Positions 1,940-11,301 of a stretch of DNA of 13,566 nucleotides are shown here, piece by piece; the stretch's first letter is position 1; the number at the start of each line of letters is the position of its first letter. The stretch comes from Sutterellaceae bacterium (GTDB taxonomy: Bacteria > Pseudomonadota > Gammaproteobacteria > Burkholderiales > Burkholderiaceae_F). The translations under genes and the position numbers were made by a program. The notes under the pieces are model-generated. The model did not search any database and was not told the DNA's origin. It was given only the letters and a program-made list of their open reading frames with translations. The stretch lies in NCBI GenBank assembly GCA_030531135.1, contig JAUNOJ010000023.1, positions 1-13,566 on the forward strand, written 5' to 3'.

Positions 1940-2575
1940 ATGACCGAAACGAAAGGCACCACGACCGAACAAACGACCGAACGCGTCAAACAACGCCGTC
2001 TTCGCCCCGATGCCAGACGCGAAGCGATTGTCACAAGCGCCGCCGCGCTCTTTGTTGAAAAAGGCGGTTTCGATATGACGATGACGGCCATTGCCAAAGC
2101 CTTGGGCATCTCGCGCAACCTCGTCTATCACTACTTCCAAAATCAGGAAGCGTTGATCGAGGCGGTGATCGACTACGAAACGCTGGAGTTGCAACGCCGA
2201 TTCAAGACGCTGCCCCTTGAACCGCAAAAAGAAGCGCTTGAAAGCGTCGTTCGCACCTATGTGGAATTTGTGATCGCGCACGCCCACGGTTTGTCGACCA
2301 TGCTGGCTTCGGCCGAAATGAGAACCCGCTTGCGCCCCTATCACGATCGCAACACGATGGTGATTTCCGAGCTCTGCGCTCAAATTTACGGCGTGGAGTT
2401 AAACGGCGCTTACCGTTCCGCTTTGATCGCCTCGGTGGACTTTATGGCCGCCTTTACCGGCACCCAGGCTGATTACCTCAAGGCTTACCCCGAGACTGCC
2501 GTCAAGACGTGCGTCCAAGTTTTTGAGAGCGCCATGGCCGGTGCAAAGGCCATTTCTCTCACCAAATCCGCTTAA
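1940..2575 (+). CDS. TetR/AcrR-family transcriptional regulator
   Basis: The 211-residue protein has a TetR_N helix-turn-helix at roughly residues 24-70. It contains RREAIVTSAAALFVEKGGFD, then MTAIAKALGISRNLVYHYFQ and NQEALIEAVI, the classic order of helix 1, the HTH and the YxYF-type recognition end. The C-terminal 140 residues are helical and would form the dimerisation and ligand-binding domain; they do not reveal the ligand. A charged N-terminal extension of about 20 residues precedes the HTH. The start ATG has an AAAAGG-like ribosome site (about 1927-1932) upstream. A perfect 28-bp palindrome just upstream suggests autorepression. The next gene begins 40 nt after its stop on the same strand with its own strong ribosome site, so this regulator very probably controls the activase/dehydratase-like protein. 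The effector may be an acyl-CoA or related metabolite, but that is a guess from context. Confidence 0.93.
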   Translation: MTETKGTTTEQTTERVKQRRLRPDARREAIVTSAAALFVEKGGFDMTMTAIAKALGISRNLVYHYFQNQEALIEAVIDYETLELQRRFKTLPLEPQKEALESVVRTYVEFVIAHAHGLSTMLASAEMRTRLRPYHDRNTMVISELCAQIYGVELNGAYRSALIASVDFMAAFTGTQADYLKAYPETAVKTCVQVFESAMAGAKAISLTKSA

Positions 2576-2601
2576 CTCGCCGATCGCGCATTCGCGATAA
2601 C

Positions 2602-2618
2602 AAGGAGGTAGTCATGTG
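2602..2618 (+). promoter_or_regulatory. strong Shine-Dalgarno with overlapping ATG/GTG starts
   Basis: A perfect anti-16S match AAGGAGGT (2602-2609) precedes the giant gene. The in-frame start is the GTG at 2616-2618 (6-nt spacing). An out-of-frame ATG at 2614-2616 shares its G with it and would be closer than optimal (4 nt); it opens only an 18-codon frame closed by TAG. The GTG gives MFTLGIDLGSTTVK, which places the first ATPase phosphate loop at the usual distance from the N-terminus. Confidence 0.8.
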
Positions 2619-5600
2619 TTCACGCTTGGCATCGATCTCGGTTCCACAACCGTCAAATACGCGCTTTTAGACGAAACATGCCGCGTCTTGGCACATGACT
2701 ACACACGCCACGCCAGTGCCGTCACCGACACTTTGGTGCGGATTCTGGAAAACCTGCAATCCTGCGTTCATCTCTCGGCTGCCGAACCGGTGCGGGTGCT
2801 TTTTTCGGGCTCCGGCGCCTTGGGCATTGCCGCTACTCTTAAAGCGCCTTTCGTCCAAGAAGTCATTGCGGCCTCAACGTACCTCAAAGCCAAATGCCCC
2901 GAGATCGACGTTGCCGTCGAATTGGGCGGCGAAGACGCCAAACTCCTTTACCTAAGCCGCGGGGTCGAACTTCGCATGAACGAGGCGTGCGCGGGCGGCA
3001 CGGGCGCTTTTATCGATCAGATGGCGTCTCTTTTGGATACCGATGCCGCAGGTCTCGATCGTCTCGCTTCTGAAGCAAGCATTTCTCACCCCATGGCAAG
3101 CCGTTGCGGCGTTTTTGCCAAAACGGACTTGGTGGCGCTCTTAAACGCAGGCGTTTCCAAAGCCGAAGTCGCCCGCTCGGCCTTGGATGCCGTGGCCGAA
3201 CAAACGGTGAGCGGCTTGGCGTGCGGGCGCCCTATCGTGGGTAACGTCGCCTTTTTGGGCGGTCCCTTGGGTTTCTTGAGTCAATTGCGCGCTGCTTTTG
3301 AACGCAGACTCGCATCTCCCTGTACCCAATTTCACACCTTTGACGATGCACCTTGTGCGGTTGCCATCGGCACGGCCTTGGCCGGGATCAAAGACACCGG
3401 CAAAGCGGCAACTGAGGGAATCAAAGACAACATCGGCGTTTTGATTGCCGAACTCAAAACGGTGCGCACCGCCGGCCAAACCGGACCTGCTCTCTCCCCG
3501 CTTTTTGCAAACGGCTCTGAAAAGCAGGAATTCTTGGCGCGCCACCGACAAGAGAGCGTCGCGCGCGCCGAACTCAAAGATGCCGTGGGCGACTTGTTTC
3601 TGGGCATAGACTTGGGCTCCACCACGATCAAAGGTGCGGTCTTGGATCAAGCGGGGCGCTTGGTCTACTCTTGGTACGAGCAAAACGAAGGGCAGCCCCT
3701 CTTGCGTTTATATGACGCAATGAAAACCCTGTTGCCCTTAATTCCCGAAGGCGCACGACTGCGCCAAGCCTGCACCACGGGTTACGGGGCCGATTTGGCC
3801 AAAGCCGCCTTGGGCGCACAGTTTCTCGAAGTCGAAACGTTGGCGCACCAGCGTGCGGCCGTGGCCTTTAACAAAGACGTGAGCTACGTGATCGATATCG
3901 GCGGCCAAGACATGAAGTGCTTGGAAGTTAAGGGCGGCTTGATCACAAGCGTAAAACTGAACGAAGCGTGTTCTTCGGGTTGCGGCTCCTTTTTGCAGAC
4001 CTTTGCCAAGCAACTGAATTTATCGTTGGATGAATTCGTTGAAGCGGCACTGGCCTCCAAAGCGCCCTGCGACTTGGGCACACGCTGCACCGTCTTTATG
4101 AATTCTCGTGTGCGTCAGGCGCAGCGCGACGGCGCCAAGCTCGAAGACATTGCGGCAGGCCTTTGCCGTTCGATCGTTCGCAATGCCTTGTACAAAGTCT
4201 TGCGCATCCATGATCCCAAGGATTTGGGAGAGCATGTCGTGGTGCAAGGCGGCACGTTTTTAAACGACGCGGTGTTGCGTGCGTTCGAGCAGCAAATCGG
4301 TCACAATGTGATTCGTCCCGACATCGCAGGCTTGATGGGCGCCTACGGCGCCGCTTTGATTGCGATGGAAAAAACCGTTGAAGCCACGCCGATACTCGAT
4401 CTTCAAATCGAGGCGATGGATATCGGGCTTGTGCGTCAGCATGCGATGCGCTGCAAAGGCTGCAACAATCACTGCGAACTGACGATGAGCCGTTTCCCGA
4501 GCGGAGAGAAGTTCTTTAGCGGCAATCGGTGCGACTTTGCGCAAAAAAGCGCCGGCGCAAAGAAAAAGACGACGCAATTTGTCGACTGGAAACTCGATTT
4601 GCTCTTTAACCGCGAACCGTTGGATGTCGACGCTGCGCCCATGGGCACGGTCGGCATCGCCAGAGCATTGAACACCTACGAACACTATCCGTACTGGTTT
4701 TCGCTTTTTTCCGAACTCGGCTTTCGGGTAGTGTTGTCCGACGCCTCGAGTCGCGCGATGGCCGGCAAAGCTTCCGCCACCATTCCGTCGCAAAGTCTGT
4801 GCTTTCCCGCCAAATTGGCCCACGGACATGTGCACGCCTTGGCGCAAGCCGGCGTTCACGACATTTGGATGCCGTGTATCCCGCACGAAGGTTGGGTGCA
4901 AAACGATTCCGACGGACGTTATGCCTGTCCGGTCGTGGGCGGCTATCCGGAAGCGCTGCGCTTATCCATTGCTTCCACTCTGCCCGAAACTCGCATATTG
5001 ACGCCTTTCGTCGACTTGGCGCATCCGCAAAGCGTGGTCAGAGAAATTCTCAAGGCTTGGCCGGAATTGAAAACTTCGGACGTCAAACGCGCCGTCAAAA
5101 CGGCTCAAGCCGCGCTGGCAACCTATCAGGCAACGGTACGCCGTAAGGGCGAAACGCTGTGGCACGAACACGTTGCCGACGGACGCCCCTTGGTGGTTTT
5201 GGCCGGGCGCCCTTACCATTTGGATCCGTTGATCAACCACGGACTGCCCGCTTTGATCGAATCCATGGGAGCAACGGTTGTCACCGAAGACGCGGTGAGT
5301 CATTTGGCCGAAGTGCCCGATGATCTTTCTGTTGTCAATCAATGGACGTTTCACGCAAGACTTTATCGCGCCGCCGCTTTGGTGCGCGAGAGCCGCTCGG
5401 CCGAACTCGTGCAGCTCGTAAGTTTCGGCTGCGGAATCGACGCCATCACAACGGAGCAAATCGAGCGCTTGCTGTCGGCCAAAAACCGCATTGCCACGAC
5501 GATCAAGATTGACGAAGGCGACACTCTGGGTGCGGCTCGCATTCGCCTAAAGTCGCTTCTGGCAGCTGTGAACGATCGCAAACACTCGGGCTTTATCGAA

Positions 5601-6959
5601 ATCGTGCCCGAACCGCTTGCCGCGCCCGCAAGAAAACCGGCCGTGACGCTCAAAGCAAAGAAAATCAAGCAAACGCGCACGATTTATGCCCCGCAAATGG
5701 CGCCGTTACATTTCCCTCTTTTGACAGCCGCACTGCAATCCATCGGCTGGAACGTGGAGCTTTTGCCCGATGTGCGACCGCAGGCCATTGAAGAAGGCTT
5801 AAAGCACGTCAATAACGATGCCTGTTACCCGGCTATCGTCGTGATCGGACAACTTTTGGACGCTTTAAAGACCAAAGAGATTGAACCGGATAAAAGCGTC
5901 TTGCTTCTTTCTCAAACGTGCGGACCGTGTCGCGCGACCAACTATCCCACGCAGTTGAAGTGGGCTTTGAAAGACATCGGGCTTGAAGACGTTCCGGTCG
6001 TTTGCCTTTCGGGCGGCAAAGTGCAAGGCGCCGAAATGCTCGACGTCGGCTTAACGGGTTTAAAACGCTTGATGATTGCCACCGTCTACGGCGACCTGTT
6101 GCAACGTCTGTCGTTTTACGTGCGTGCACATGAGCTCAACAAGGGCGAGGCCGACAAACTTGTCAAAGGTTGGACGATGCTCGCCAAACCTGCCGTCATG
6201 GACGGCAATGTTCGTCAGTTGGCAAAGGATGCCCATGCCATGGTTGCCGACTTCATGTCCATACCGATGGACGGCATTGAAAAGCCACGCGTCGGAATCG
6301 TCGGCGAAATTTTGCTCAAGTACCACCCGGTGGCCAACCTCGGGATCGTGCAGGAAATCATTGACGAGGGGCTTGAGCCCGTCTTGGGCGATTTGTCGAG
6401 CTTTTTCCTCTATTGCTTGAACGATCGCATCTATCAGGCGCAGTTTGGCGGCAACAAAGCCAGGGCCTGGGGTGCCAAGCTTTTAATTCAATGGTTTGAG
6501 CGCGTCAGAAGCACCATGCGAGACGCTTTGGCCGGCACGCCTTTAGAAGGCGTTTCGACCTTGACCGAAGATTTGCAGCATATCGAAGGGCTGGTCAGTC
6601 CCGGTCAGGAAGCGGGCGAAGGTTGGCTTTTGACGGCAGAGATGTCGCGCTTTTTGCAAACAGGAACGGACAACGTCGTGTGCTTGCAACCCTTCGGGTG
6701 TCTGCCCAACCACATCACGGGCAAAGGCGTGATGCGTCACTTAAGAGAAACGCGGCCGTTCGCCAATTTGTGTGCCATCGACTTTGAAGCCGGGACGTCT
6801 AAGACCAACGTCACGAATCGCTTGAAACTCTTTTTGGCGCAAGCCAAAGAAAACTTCGCCAAGAAGTCGGCCGGTTTTGAAATTTGCGAACCTCCGAGGC
6901 ATTCTGCCTCGGCCGTGAACGACACACGCGTCATCCAGATCATGGCAGCCGACGACTAA
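2616..6959 (+). CDS. giant acyl-CoA dehydratase activase-related protein (tandem BcrA/BadF/HgdC ATPases, DUF2229, dehydratase-like C-terminus)
   Basis: This 1447-residue cytoplasmic protein joins modules usually found as separate proteins. Residues about 1-258 form one BcrAD/BadFG/HgdC-type ATPase: DLGSTTVK at 7-14, ELGGEDAK at 102-109, then cluster-type cysteines C125 in NEACAGGTG and C164 in SRCGVFAKTD. Residues about 326-588 form a second: DLGSTTIK at 332-339, DIGGQDMK at 427-434, C452 in NEACSSGCGS, C491 in TRCTVF. In HgdC such a cysteine pair from each subunit holds one [4Fe-4S] cluster across a homodimer; here both halves are in one chain. A CxxCxxxC...C knuckle follows (C613, C616, C620, C639). 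A DUF2229 region (about 676-900) has RALNTYEHYPYW and SLCFPAKLAHGH. The C-terminal region (about 1020-1420) has NNDACYPAIV (C1070), TCGPCRATNYP (C1102/C1105) and QPFGCLPNH (C1362). The family is known but its reaction is not settled; related two-component systems drive ATP-dependent low-potential electron transfer. Length is usual for the fused form and the frame is intact. Start is GTG. Confidence 0.92.
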   Translation: MFTLGIDLGSTTVKYALLDETCRVLAHDYTRHASAVTDTLVRILENLQSCVHLSAAEPVRVLFSGSGALGIAATLKAPFVQEVIAASTYLKAKCPEIDVAVELGGEDAKLLYLSRGVELRMNEACAGGTGAFIDQMASLLDTDAAGLDRLASEASISHPMASRCGVFAKTDLVALLNAGVSKAEVARSALDAVAEQTVSGLACGRPIVGNVAFLGGPLGFLSQLRAAFERRLASPCTQFHTFDDAPCAVAIGTALAGIKDTGKAATEGIKDNIGVLIAELKTVRTAGQTGPALSPLFANGSEKQEFLARHRQESVARAELKDAVGDLFLGIDLGSTTIKGAVLDQAGRLVYSWYEQNEGQPLLRLYDAMKTLLPLIPEGARLRQACTTGYGADLAKAALGAQFLEVETLAHQRAAVAFNKDVSYVIDIGGQDMKCLEVKGGLITSVKLNEACSSGCGSFLQTFAKQLNLSLDEFVEAALASKAPCDLGTRCTVFMNSRVRQAQRDGAKLEDIAAGLCRSIVRNALYKVLRIHDPKDLGEHVVVQGGTFLNDAVLRAFEQQIGHNVIRPDIAGLMGAYGAALIAMEKTVEATPILDLQIEAMDIGLVRQHAMRCKGCNNHCELTMSRFPSGEKFFSGNRCDFAQKSAGAKKKTTQFVDWKLDLLFNREPLDVDAAPMGTVGIARALNTYEHYPYWFSLFSELGFRVVLSDASSRAMAGKASATIPSQSLCFPAKLAHGHVHALAQAGVHDIWMPCIPHEGWVQNDSDGRYACPVVGGYPEALRLSIASTLPETRILTPFVDLAHPQSVVREILKAWPELKTSDVKRAVKTAQAALATYQATVRRKGETLWHEHVADGRPLVVLAGRPYHLDPLINHGLPALIESMGATVVTEDAVSHLAEVPDDLSVVNQWTFHARLYRAAALVRESRSAELVQLVSFGCGIDAITTEQIERLLSAKNRIATTIKIDEGDTLGAARIRLKSLLAAVNDRKHSGFIEIVPEPLAAPARKPAVTLKAKKIKQTRTIYAPQMAPLHFPLLTAALQSIGWNVELLPDVRPQAIEEGLKHVNNDACYPAIVVIGQLLDALKTKEIEPDKSVLLLSQTCGPCRATNYPTQLKWALKDIGLEDVPVVCLSGGKVQGAEMLDVGLTGLKRLMIATVYGDLLQRLSFYVRAHELNKGEADKLVKGWTMLAKPAVMDGNVRQLAKDAHAMVADFMSIPMDGIEKPRVGIVGEILLKYHPVANLGIVQEIIDEGLEPVLGDLSSFFLYCLNDRIYQAQFGGNKARAWGAKLLIQWFERVRSTMRDALAGTPLEGVSTLTEDLQHIEGLVSPGQEAGEGWLLTAEMSRFLQTGTDNVVCLQPFGCLPNHITGKGVMRHLRETRPFANLCAIDFEAGTSKTNVTNRLKLFLAQAKENFAKKSAGFEICEPPRHSASAVNDTRVIQIMAADD

Positions 6960-6963
6960 ACGC

Positions 6964-7002
6964 CAAAGAAACATCTGCTTGCAAACGGTCATTGTTTCTT
7001 TG
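6964..7002. repeat. 10-bp inverted repeat just downstream of the giant gene
   Basis: CAAAGAAACA (6964-6973) and TGTTTCTTTG (6993-7002) are exact reverse complements with a 19-nt loop, starting 4 nt after the stop codon. It could mark transcript end or processing for the tetR-activase operon. It is AT-rich and lacks a following run of T, so it is not a textbook intrinsic terminator. Confidence 0.45.
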
Positions 7003-7036
7003 CTCGGTAAACGTCAATCGCGGGCGGCATCGGGCA

Positions 7037-7042
7037 TACAAT
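7037..7042 (+). promoter_or_regulatory. candidate -10 box for the lipoprotein gene
   Basis: TACAAT (7037-7042) matches TATAAT at five of six positions and lies 32 nt before the lipoprotein ATG. No good -35 is seen at 16-18 nt upstream, so the assignment is tentative. Confidence 0.35.
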
Positions 7043-7074
7043 TAAGAAAAATACTTTCTTTTTGAGTGTGCCTT

Positions 7075-7617
7075 ATGCAAGCCCGTTCATTTGTTTTACC
7101 TTGCATCGGCTTTGCCGCCGTTGCCCTGCTCGCAGGGTGCTCGACGACTGTCGTTTTCACCAGCGACATCGAAGGCGCCACCGTCACCAATGCTGCAGGC
7201 GAACTCTATGGCGTCACGCCTACGTCAGTCAACTACGATAACAACGCCTTGGACGATTCGCGCGACGCCAACGGATGCGCGCGTATTACGGGCGTCACTT
7301 ACAAGTGGCCTTCGGGCGCAACGGTAACTTCCGACAATCCTATTTTGCTCTGTGGCAAGCGCAGCCAATACATCTTTAGACTCACGCGCCCCGAGGATGC
7401 GCCCAACAAAGAAGTCGATCTGCAAAACGCTTTGGAGCGCATGCGCGTGCGACAAGTCCAACTTCAGGCCGATTTGGAGCGCGAGCGTCTTTATTCGGAT
7501 CATTGGTTCTGGATGGGGCCGGGCTTTATGTGGCACATGCCGGGACCGCCCCCGCCGCCGCGTCGTCCGCCGAGACCGCCTAAGCCCATGAATCCCCCGC
7601 CACCGCCTCCGCGTTAA
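7075..7617 (+). CDS. lipoprotein of unknown function with PEGA-like segment and proline-rich tail
   Basis: The 180-residue product starts MQARSFVLPCIGFAAVALLA and has a lipobox LAGC with lipidated Cys22; Ser at +2 predicts sorting to the outer membrane. Residues about 31-52 (DIEGATVTNAAGELYGVTPT) resemble a PEGA-type repeat, a small beta fold common in surface proteins. Two further cysteines (C68, C93) could form a periplasmic disulfide. Residues about 112-140 are charged and helical (QNALERMRVRQVQLQADLER), possibly a short coiled coil. An aromatic patch HWFWMGPGFMWHM is followed by an Arg/Lys-studded polyproline end (about 156-180). I chose this ATG rather than the GTG nine bases upstream because it gives a compact signal peptide; the ribosome site is weak for both. 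I do not recognise a named family. The gene stands between two unrelated genes and probably has its own promoter. Confidence 0.82.
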   Translation: MQARSFVLPCIGFAAVALLAGCSTTVVFTSDIEGATVTNAAGELYGVTPTSVNYDNNALDDSRDANGCARITGVTYKWPSGATVTSDNPILLCGKRSQYIFRLTRPEDAPNKEVDLQNALERMRVRQVQLQADLERERLYSDHWFWMGPGFMWHMPGPPPPPRRPPRPPKPMNPPPPPPR

Positions 7618-8922: not shown

Positions 8923-11301
8923 TTAGGCACGCTGTGCAGCGATCGGGATGATCTTGCGACCCTTGCCCTGGTTCTTGCGAACGTAGTTGCGCATGAAGAG
9001 CAACATACCGCCGAGAACCACAACCGTTGCCACGATGGCGCAGATACCGTAGACGGGGTTTTCGGAGAACGTACCCAAGCGGTAGACGAGCATAGCGGCA
9101 CAGTAACCCATGGCGGTGGTCCAGCCGGCCAAGAACAAGGTCCAGGCCGTACCGGCTTCACGGTACACGGCACCGATAGCAGCTGCGCAGGGCATGTAGA
9201 GCAGAACCATCATCAAGTATGCAAAGGCGGCCAACGGCGTACCGAAGAGCTTTTGCATCATGGTCACGGTATCGACTTCCACTTCCTGTTCTTCTGCAGC
9301 GGCAGCGGTGTCCGACAAGTCGTCGACTGCAATGCCGAGCGGATCCAAGAAGGCGCCGCCGATATCGGCCAAGTTGTCAACGATACTCTGACCGGCTTCG
9401 CCGAGGATGGCGGCCAAGGACCAGCCTTCATCGCCTTCTTCTTCCTCAGCGGCACCTTCGCCTTCACCTTCGGCAGCTGCTGCTGCAGCGGCGTTTTCGG
9501 CGCGAGCCATAGAGTCATACAAGGAGTTCATGGAACCGACCACGGCTTCCTTAGCCAAAATACCCGTGAAGATACCCACTGCGGCAGGCCAGTTTTCCTG
9601 CGTCACGCCCATGGGAGACAACACCGGAGCGATCGTCTGACCGATTTCGGACAACACGGAGCTGTTGGAGTCTTCGTTACCGAAGGAACCGTCGGTACCC
9701 CAAGAGTTCAAGAAGCTGAGGATGGCGACCACAACCACGATGGTCTTACCGGCACGCTGGATAAAGGACTTCAGACGATCCCAGGTACGCAACAACACGC
9801 CCTTGACGGTCGGGATGTGGTACGGCGGGATTTCCATCACGAAGGCACCGACGTCGCCCGGCAACACCACGCGCTTCATCATAAAGCCCGTGAGAATAGC
9901 CACGACGATACCGATCACATAGATACCGAACACGAGGTTCTGACCGTTCGTGGGGAAGAAGGCCGTTGCAAACAACACGTAAACAGGCATACGGGCGCCG
10001 CAAGACATAAACGGAGCCATCAAGATGGTGATGATACGGTCGGTGGCGCGGTCCATCGTACGCGTGGCCATAATGGCAGGCACGTTACAACCGAAACCGA
10101 CGATCAACGGCACGAAGGCACGACCCGGCAAACCGATGGCGCGCATCAGGCGATCCATCACGAATGCGGCACGAGCCATGTAACCCGAGTCTTCCAAGAA
10201 GGCCAAGAAGAGGAACAGGAAGAAGATCGGGGGAACGAACGTTGCAACCGTCTGCAAACCGCCGCCGATACCGTCGGCGAGAATCACGCGCAACCATTCG
10301 GGAGAACCCATCGAGTCAAGCAAACGACCGAAACCGTCGACGAAGATACCGCCGAAGAGAATGTCGAAGAAGTCGATGAATGCGCCGCCGAAGTTCTGCG
10401 TAAACAGGAACATCACATACATGATGAGCAAGAAGATCGGCAGACCCAACCAGCGGTTCAAAACGACGTGGTCGATCTTATCGGTGACGGTAGCGGACAA
10501 TTCGCCTTCACGCGTCAAAGACTTGTTGGCCACACCGGCCACGAAGCGATAACGGGCGTCCGAAATGGAGATATCGGCGTCGCCCTCGAATTCGTCTTCG
10601 AGCTTGTCGATCACGGGCTTGACGGCATCCCAGCAGGCATCCGGCAACTTGTTCTGGATGTCGGGAGAGCCTTCCATCGCCTGAATGGCAAACCAGTCGG
10701 CGTGCGGAACACCCTGGCTCTTTAAAGCGTCGGAAATGGCGGCGCCGGCCTTGACGATGCGATCGTCAAACTGCACCTGAAGCGGCGGCACGACGGGCTT
10801 GGCCAAGCAATCGGCCACAGCCTGCATCAAATCGCGCACGCCCTGTTCGCGAGAAGCGACGATACCGACCACGGGGCAGCCGAGCATCTTTTCGAGCTCT
10901 TTGAGATCGACCGTCATCTTCTGATCGGCGGCGATGTCAAGCATGTTGACCACAACCAACATCGGCACGCGCATTTCGATCAACTGCGTGGTCAAGTAGA
11001 GGTTGCGTTCGAGGTTGCTGGCGTCAACGATGTTGATGACGAGCTGGGATTCGCCCGACAAAATGTAGTCGCGGGCAACGCGTTCGTCTTCACCGGCCGT
11101 GGAAGCAGGCGTAATGGAGTAGATACCGGGAAGGTCGACGATTTCGACGGATTCGCCGCCGAACTTGTAGTGACCGACCTTCTTTTCAACGGTCACGCCG
11201 GGCCAGTTACCCACGTCTTGGTGAGAACCGGTCAAGGCGTTAAACAGTGTCGTCTTACCGCAATTGGGATTGCCGACGATACAAACAATATTCTTGCTCA
11301 T
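8923..11301 (-). CDS. feoB: ferrous iron transporter FeoB
   Basis: The 792-residue inner-membrane protein takes up Fe2+. The cytoplasmic N-terminal G domain shows G1 GNPNCGKT (10-17), G2 around Thr37 in NWPGVTVEK, G3 DLPG (56-59), G4 NMLD (119-122) and a G5-like VASREQG (148-154). A GDI-like helical region follows to about 275. The membrane part has the paired Gate motifs with GFGCNVPA (Cys405), APFMSCGARMPVY (Cys434) and LLYMPCAA (Cys705). Unusual is a low-complexity Ala/Glu insert between about 599 and 675, before the last group of helices. No feoC is seen. It starts 56 nt downstream of the second feoA; the ribosome site is weak (AGGG about 12 nt upstream), so translation may depend on the upstream genes. 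A strong terminator follows. Confidence 0.97.
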   Translation of the reverse strand: MSKNIVCIVGNPNCGKTTLFNALTGSHQDVGNWPGVTVEKKVGHYKFGGESVEIVDLPGIYSITPASTAGEDERVARDYILSGESQLVINIVDASNLERNLYLTTQLIEMRVPMLVVVNMLDIAADQKMTVDLKELEKMLGCPVVGIVASREQGVRDLMQAVADCLAKPVVPPLQVQFDDRIVKAGAAISDALKSQGVPHADWFAIQAMEGSPDIQNKLPDACWDAVKPVIDKLEDEFEGDADISISDARYRFVAGVANKSLTREGELSATVTDKIDHVVLNRWLGLPIFLLIMYVMFLFTQNFGGAFIDFFDILFGGIFVDGFGRLLDSMGSPEWLRVILADGIGGGLQTVATFVPPIFFLFLFLAFLEDSGYMARAAFVMDRLMRAIGLPGRAFVPLIVGFGCNVPAIMATRTMDRATDRIITILMAPFMSCGARMPVYVLFATAFFPTNGQNLVFGIYVIGIVVAILTGFMMKRVVLPGDVGAFVMEIPPYHIPTVKGVLLRTWDRLKSFIQRAGKTIVVVVAILSFLNSWGTDGSFGNEDSNSSVLSEIGQTIAPVLSPMGVTQENWPAAVGIFTGILAKEAVVGSMNSLYDSMARAENAAAAAAAEGEGEGAAEEEEGDEGWSLAAILGEAGQSIVDNLADIGGAFLDPLGIAVDDLSDTAAAAEEQEVEVDTVTMMQKLFGTPLAAFAYLMMVLLYMPCAAAIGAVYREAGTAWTLFLAGWTTAMGYCAAMLVYRLGTFSENPVYGICAIVATVVVLGGMLLFMRNYVRKNQGKGRKIIPIAAQRA

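Follow-up and report, generated by a model that had tools for sequence, protein, structure and literature searches.

Which enzyme is encoded when two ATP-dependent activase modules and the acceptor that they might feed lie in one gene? The question is raised by an open reading frame (ORF) in a 13,566-nucleotide stretch of a Sutterellaceae bacterium (contig JAUNOJ010000023.1 of assembly GCA_030531135.1, hereafter the window), whose product was described in the original prediction as two complete HgdC/BcrA-type activase modules joined to a cysteine knuckle, a DUF2229 region and a C-terminal region with conserved cysteines. In this study we consider its product to be, probably, a low-potential reductase that is self-contained and driven by ATP. 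As modelled, its acceptor is made of two HgdB-like halves, the DUF2229 region itself being the first, and one chain would then unite two activases with a pair of catalytic halves, the composition that class I benzoyl-CoA reductase spreads over four subunits.

The ATP-driven members of this superfamily attain very low potentials, the known case being the reduction of benzoyl-CoA. A single gene that encodes the complete pump and reductase, with no partner recurring beside it, would be unusually convenient for expression, mutagenesis and structure work, and the one-, two- and three-gene layouts offer natural comparisons. The composition of the two-gene version has been in print since 2024 (PMC11362221; this and all other papers are cited from excerpts); new here are the acceptor as two halves, the alternative layouts, the recognition of the knuckle as a hallmark, and the finding that no partner gene recurs.

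Two activases and two predicted catalytic halves in one chain

Pfam finds BcrAD_BadFG in two stretches of the 1447-residue ORF and DUF2229 at residues 678-894. The two activase domains (ACT1 and ACT2) each separately exceed the BcrAD_BadFG cut-off (Table 1), in agreement with the two modules of the original prediction. ACT1 matches HgdC (1hux) at E 2.4e-20 and ACT2 matches 4eht at E 1.9e-27, with TIGR00241 also above its cut-off. The predicted cluster-type cysteines C125/C164 and C452/C491 line up with the corresponding cysteines of both structures, and all four are invariant in our alignment of 162 rows, the window protein among them. The two domains match each other over 253 profile columns (E 8.2e-30). 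A quick tree built from 87 activase domains places ACT1, ACT2, the split activases and the ordinary HgdC-type activases each on one side of a branch, a placement from which ACT1 and ACT2 appear to be a single ancient pair and not the outcome of repeated duplications.

The ATPase fold also returns FGGY_N, ROK and pantothenate kinase matches, nearly all below cut-off. A protein that has lost its redox function and persists as a mere ATPase or sugar-kinase-like protein would fit such matches, but 17 cysteines of the chain, among them every proposed ligand of a cluster, are kept in all 162 rows, and we regard such a loss as most improbable.

Behind ACT2 stands the four-cysteine knuckle, whose cysteines are each invariant and which is possibly an extra metal or iron-sulfur site. 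A knuckle-like motif forms the C-terminal tail of 7/7 activases of the three-gene form described below and of 0/12 ordinary HgdC-type activases in the same set. The original prediction had listed the knuckle; that it is a hallmark of the subfamily is added by the present analysis.

The original prediction had an internal activase pseudo-dimer feeding electrons to the chain's own C-terminus. That layout is still the best reading, but the acceptor comprises, as predicted here, two catalytic halves (H1 and H2), of which H1 includes the DUF2229 region. The predicted models of both halves find their best matches in HadB, BzdN and the double-cubane-cluster protein (DCCP), which for H2 agrees with the proposed relation of the C-terminal region to the HgdB/DCCP fold, and the closest solved folds include MBR and BzdNO chains. 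The matches are of low identity and low TM-score, however, which slightly reduces our confidence in a single-chain reductase. At the sequence level, PF06050 (HGD-D) matches neither fused half, the fused H1 and H2 profiles have no direct link to HGD-D, and no solved structure was matched when the sequence of the catalytic part was used as query. A weak DUF2229 match lies within H2 at positions 5712-5867.

Separate genes offer independent evidence. Weak HGD-D matches in genomes carrying the fused gene led to adjacent gene pairs of about 300 and 365 residues, which correspond to separate H1 and H2. Fused and split profiles match for H1 (E 1.1e-39) and for H2 (E 1.3e-22), split H1 matches split H2 (E 1.4e-33), and the split halves match HGD-D profiles at E 9.9e-12 and 2.7e-13. 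PF06050 itself scores 36.1 and 28.5 bits on two split H1 proteins (cut-off 28.4), and among the split H2 proteins one reaches 21.3 bits, below the cut-off, and one has no match. Three cluster cysteines per half are invariant in HGD-D (28/28), split H1 (9/9) and split H2 (9/9), and the matching positions of H1 and H2 in the single-chain proteins are cysteine in 162/162 rows. The match of the catalytic part is beyond chance, since 7,990 of 7,993 scored candidates match it at E<=0.001.

Of the C-terminal cysteines named as conserved in the original prediction, C1070, C1105 and C1362 are invariant, but C1102 is cysteine in only 109/162 rows; its position is glycine in 52 of 59 genome-derived rows and in all eight two-gene loci. 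In the DUF2229 region the invariant C729, C771 and C939 had not been listed, and beside them C754 is cysteine in 140/162 rows. An [8Fe-9S] cluster takes six cysteines, as in BzdN (PMC11971306). H1 offers the three invariant cysteines plus C754, and H2 offers six only in closer relatives, where six positions are each cysteine in 101 or 102 of 102 proteins, four of them family-wide. A double cubane in H2 of these closer relatives is therefore possible from the cysteine pattern, but because of the glycine at C1102 it would not be family-wide. Three more invariant cysteines, C435, C456 and C1356, lie outside the expected ligand sets.

Table 1. Features of the single-chain gene and its upstream neighbour, in window coordinates.
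Feature	Position	Strand	Remarks
TetR-type regulator, directly upstream	1940..2575	+	40-base gap to 2616
AAGGAGGT, probable ribosome-binding site for the GTG codon at 2616	2602..2609	+	read directly in the sequence
ACT1-ACT2-knuckle-H1-H2 single-chain gene	2616..6959	+	1447 aa; GTG start; ORF intact
ACT1, first HgdC/BcrA-type activase domain	2619..3392	+	residues 2-259; Pfam 64.3 and 63.8 bits in two scans (cut-off 31.5)
ACT1 cluster-type cysteines	C125 2988-2990; C164 3105-3107	+	162/162 rows
ACT2, second HgdC/BcrA-type activase domain	3594..4370	+	residues 327-585; Pfam 137.4 bits (cut-off 31.5)
C435, after GGQDMK	3918-3920	+	Cys in 162/162
ACT2 cluster-type cysteines	C452 3969-3971; C491 4086-4088	+	162/162 rows
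C456, within ACSSGC	3981-3983	+	Cys in 162/162
Four-cysteine knuckle after ACT2	4437..4550	+	residues 608-645; C613, C616, C620, C639, each 162/162
H1, predicted first HgdB/DCCP-like catalytic half, DUF2229 included	4605..5579	+	residues 664-988; predicted model, fold matches, profile match to split H1
H1 invariant cysteines	C729 4800-4802; C771 4926-4928; C939 5430-5432	+	162/162
H2, predicted second HgdB/DCCP-like catalytic half	5667..6851	+	residues 1018-1412; predicted model, fold matches, profile match to split H2
H2 invariant cysteines	C1070 5823-5825; C1105 5928-5930; C1362 6699-6701	+	162/162
C1356, six residues ahead of C1362	6681-6683	+	Cys in 162/162

Split and two-gene layouts

Separate H1 and H2 genes were collected in 28 loci, eight from the first finding and 20 from a later survey. 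An activase gene stands beside the pair in 22 of them, and the pair was seen alone in the other six. One split locus (L220) has a second H2-like gene of 355 residues after the activase, from position 10731.

A two-gene layout was seen in eight loci that had been selected by ORF length, about 990 residues; two of these loci (L197 and L199) are near-identical. All eight encode ACT-ACT-knuckle-H1 in one gene and H2 in another. The break point falls at residues 989-998 of the window protein in seven; it was not placed in L196. When 101 H1 domains were placed in a quick tree, which was rooted at its midpoint and has some long branches, the two-gene layout formed one group nested among the single-chain proteins, which suggests that it arose by a single gene fission. 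Among the long homologues, six were checked for insertions, which were found at a few sites, and five of 1,776-1,922 residues have no extra domain above the Pfam cut-off except ROK on the ATPase fold.

Two of the first eight split loci contain selenium genes (selA in L138, a gene for a SelD-like AIRS protein in L137), and a list that names a CoA-substrate-specific enzyme activase and 2-hydroxyglutaryl-CoA dehydratase subunits of Slackia (PMC5322559) associates these genes with YedE, YedF, a LysR-like gene or DUF3343. A part in selenium metabolism would fit both, but SelA, SelB, SelD, YedE and desulfurase queries over the 28 split loci each returned their own locus only, these queries being ORF-based and so liable to overlook a SelD that an in-frame TGA interrupts, and selD is above cut-off in just 14 of 24 fused-gene genomes. 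With two of 28 split loci and no further locus from five queries the link was dropped; we hold it to be very unlikely.

Comparison with known systems

Class I benzoyl-CoA reductase (BcrABCD, BzdNOPQ, MbdONPQ) likewise combines two ATPases with two BCR/HAD-fold halves, but as four separate subunits, whereas here there is one chain with an additional four-cysteine knuckle. In HgdAB/HgdC and HadABC the activator is a separate homodimer, whereas here two activases lie within the chain. As for partners of the HgdAB/HadABC type, the window contains no CoA-transferase, and the organism's own genome has neither an HGD-D match nor a BcrAD match beyond this ORF (the assembly being 87.55% complete, in 403 contigs). 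DCCP (6eno; E. coli YjiM/YjiL type), an ATP-driven reductase described as having an unknown physiological role (PMC11971306), shares the fold class of H1 and H2, but is a homodimer served by a separate reductase protein, whereas here everything lies within one chain.

The two-gene version was noted in 2024 in Ruminococcus bins, as an ACT-ACT-DUF2229 fusion with an adjoining Hgd-D-like gene; it has the same parts as the window protein, with the second catalytic half separate, and corresponds to the layout of our eight loci. It was compared with BcrCBAD and proposed to be an acyl-CoA reductase of aromatic degradation (PMC11362221). In the excerpts searched, this is the only paper that names DUF2229, and they gave no tested function for the family, two DCCP papers, which may treat the fused family, and a 2020 double-cubane review lying outside their scope. 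The original prediction of an undescribed ATP-driven reductase is partly supported, with the reservation that, for the two-gene version, the composition was already in print.

Proposed mechanism

Composition and folds rest on sequence, prediction and comparison. The types of cluster, the route of the electrons and the stoichiometry of ATP are inferred, and the substrate is a guess. ACT1 and ACT2 would pack as a pseudo-dimer in which C125, C164, C452 and C491 hold one [4Fe-4S] cluster, by homology with HgdC, whose homodimer holds one such cluster with two cysteines per subunit (PMC8473912). A ferredoxin or flavodoxin would reduce this cluster, perhaps via the knuckle, and ATP hydrolysis at two sites would drive single electrons to the clusters in H1 (putative ligands C729/C771/C939) and H2 (C1070/C1105/C1362). 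One half may then relay or store electrons while the other reduces the substrate, by analogy with the division proposed for BzdN and BzdO (PMC11971306).

Neighbourhood and candidate substrates

The window neighbours are leuC, the TetR gene, a 183-residue protein without family match, tsaD, feoB and a GarR-like dehydrogenase. As originally predicted, no hgdA/hgdB or CoA-transferase is found among the window genes (the latter was sought within the window only), nor is any other partner visible, and the window holds no aromatic pathway genes. Across 81 sources (80 GTDB loci and the window, many with short flanks) the fused-gene cluster occurs in 79 and no other family in more than 15. The six most frequent other families (an ABC transporter, a protein without Pfam match, TP_methylase, a methyltransferase, Germane of spore germination and EPSP_synthase) are read as clade synteny, and the fused gene behaves, to judge by gene content, as a self-contained unit without a recurring partner gene.

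These results bear on what the enzyme may reduce. An acyl-CoA reductase or dehydratase proper, acting on a CoA ester as does for example the ring reductase of aromatic degradation, is a possibility that we entertain tentatively: the chain resembles class I benzoyl-CoA reductase in its two-plus-two composition and in its predicted folds, and this function is the one proposed for the Ruminococcus version (PMC11362221). Against it stands the neighbourhood just described, in which five of the six most frequent neighbour exemplars have a Pfam match and none belongs to CoA metabolism; around the 28 split loci, too, the most frequent other family occurs in only six. Furthermore, no NCBIfam equivalog cut-off is reached by BcrA (109.6 of 578 bits), BcrD (65.4 of 312.85) or BzdQ (64.1 of 380.2), all far below. 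DUF2229 matches also occur in Lactococcus lactis and Thermotoga maritima, neither of which is, to our knowledge, an aromatic degrader. That the substrate is instead a small non-CoA molecule is a guess, and likewise a tentative one.

A chain without conserved neighbours would also fit a general service role, namely that of a reductive activator in trans that restores or activates the metal centre of another protein, and the activation complex of methyl-coenzyme M reductase provides an example of ATP-dependent activation via complex iron-sulfur clusters (PMC12176620). However, the chain already brings its own pair of catalytic halves, which have cysteines as in substrate-reducing enzymes, and its neighbourhood shows no recurring target gene. 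We judge such activation unlikely, and less likely than either a CoA-ester or a small non-CoA substrate.

Distribution

The family of proteins is common in anaerobes. In the family of the window organism, 21 of 61 sampled genomes have a strong DUF2229 match (E<=6e-60), and all 21 also match anaerobic ribonucleotide reductase; the 24 genomes without a match to that reductase include none with a strong DUF2229 match. Not counted as strong are the matches in G009 (4.2e-14, over the cut-off) and in G021 and G033 (about 4e-4). Since the sampled genomes are related, this co-occurrence is to be taken as a pattern rather than as a test. Within the genus the gene occurs in five of nine genomes, the window's own included, and in the class of a Caloramator genome (G069) a split or fused H1-like match was found in 86/118 genomes.

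G009, one of the genomes without an anaerobic ribonucleotide reductase match, encodes a distant relative of 1638 residues (locus L221, positions 2525-7441, + strand), with DUF2229 at 48.4 bits and one activase match at 45.5 bits; a gene nearby presumably resembles ETF-ubiquinone oxidoreductase. With this relative and the DUF2229 matches in Thermus composti and Deinobacterium chartae, a version of the fused gene is conceivable that may occur in aerobes.

Gene start, regulation and minor observations

AAGGAGGT lies 6 nt ahead of the GTG start. Of two close relatives, P0007 shares this start and P0022 begins some nine residues further upstream; the closest named relatives are Sutterella. Promoter and terminator scans gave counts not above those of shuffles, and Rfam gave no match. 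Downstream, the 183-residue protein (7066-7617, + strand) has a lipoprotein-like start and a proline-rich tail, without a Pfam or NCBIfam match at E<=0.001.

The TetR-type protein possibly regulates the single-chain gene, to judge by its position. Related TetR genes, 28-35% identical to that of the window, stand upstream of the fused gene in 6 of 25 sources (the window, four named loci and 20 family regions; L143 and L149 yielded no fused ORF); the loci are L025 and L158, which are probably one contig, L151, L152 and L024, where two TetR genes stand further off with another ORF between. A perfect 16-base palindrome, TTTAACAAGTGTTAAA, at positions 1890-1905, 34 bases ahead of the TetR start codon, may be its operator; shuffled sequence gave 0.03 matches on average at up to two mismatches, and a search of seven other loci did not recover the palindrome.

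A Rex-like site is reported for a Lactobacillus 'CoA-substrate-specific enzyme activase' (PMC4972977), linked to our gene by name only. A loose Rex-like pattern lies upstream of 4/56 fused genes and 30/531 other ORFs at up to one mismatch (p 0.55), and of 24/56 and 175/531 at up to two (p 0.14). Being no commoner upstream of the fused genes, it was dropped. Linked likewise by name only, a gene of S. gallolyticus appears in an expression table with macrophage-like cells (PMC5495212), and one of Streptococcus mutans is up 2.2-fold at manganese depletion (PMC6952196).
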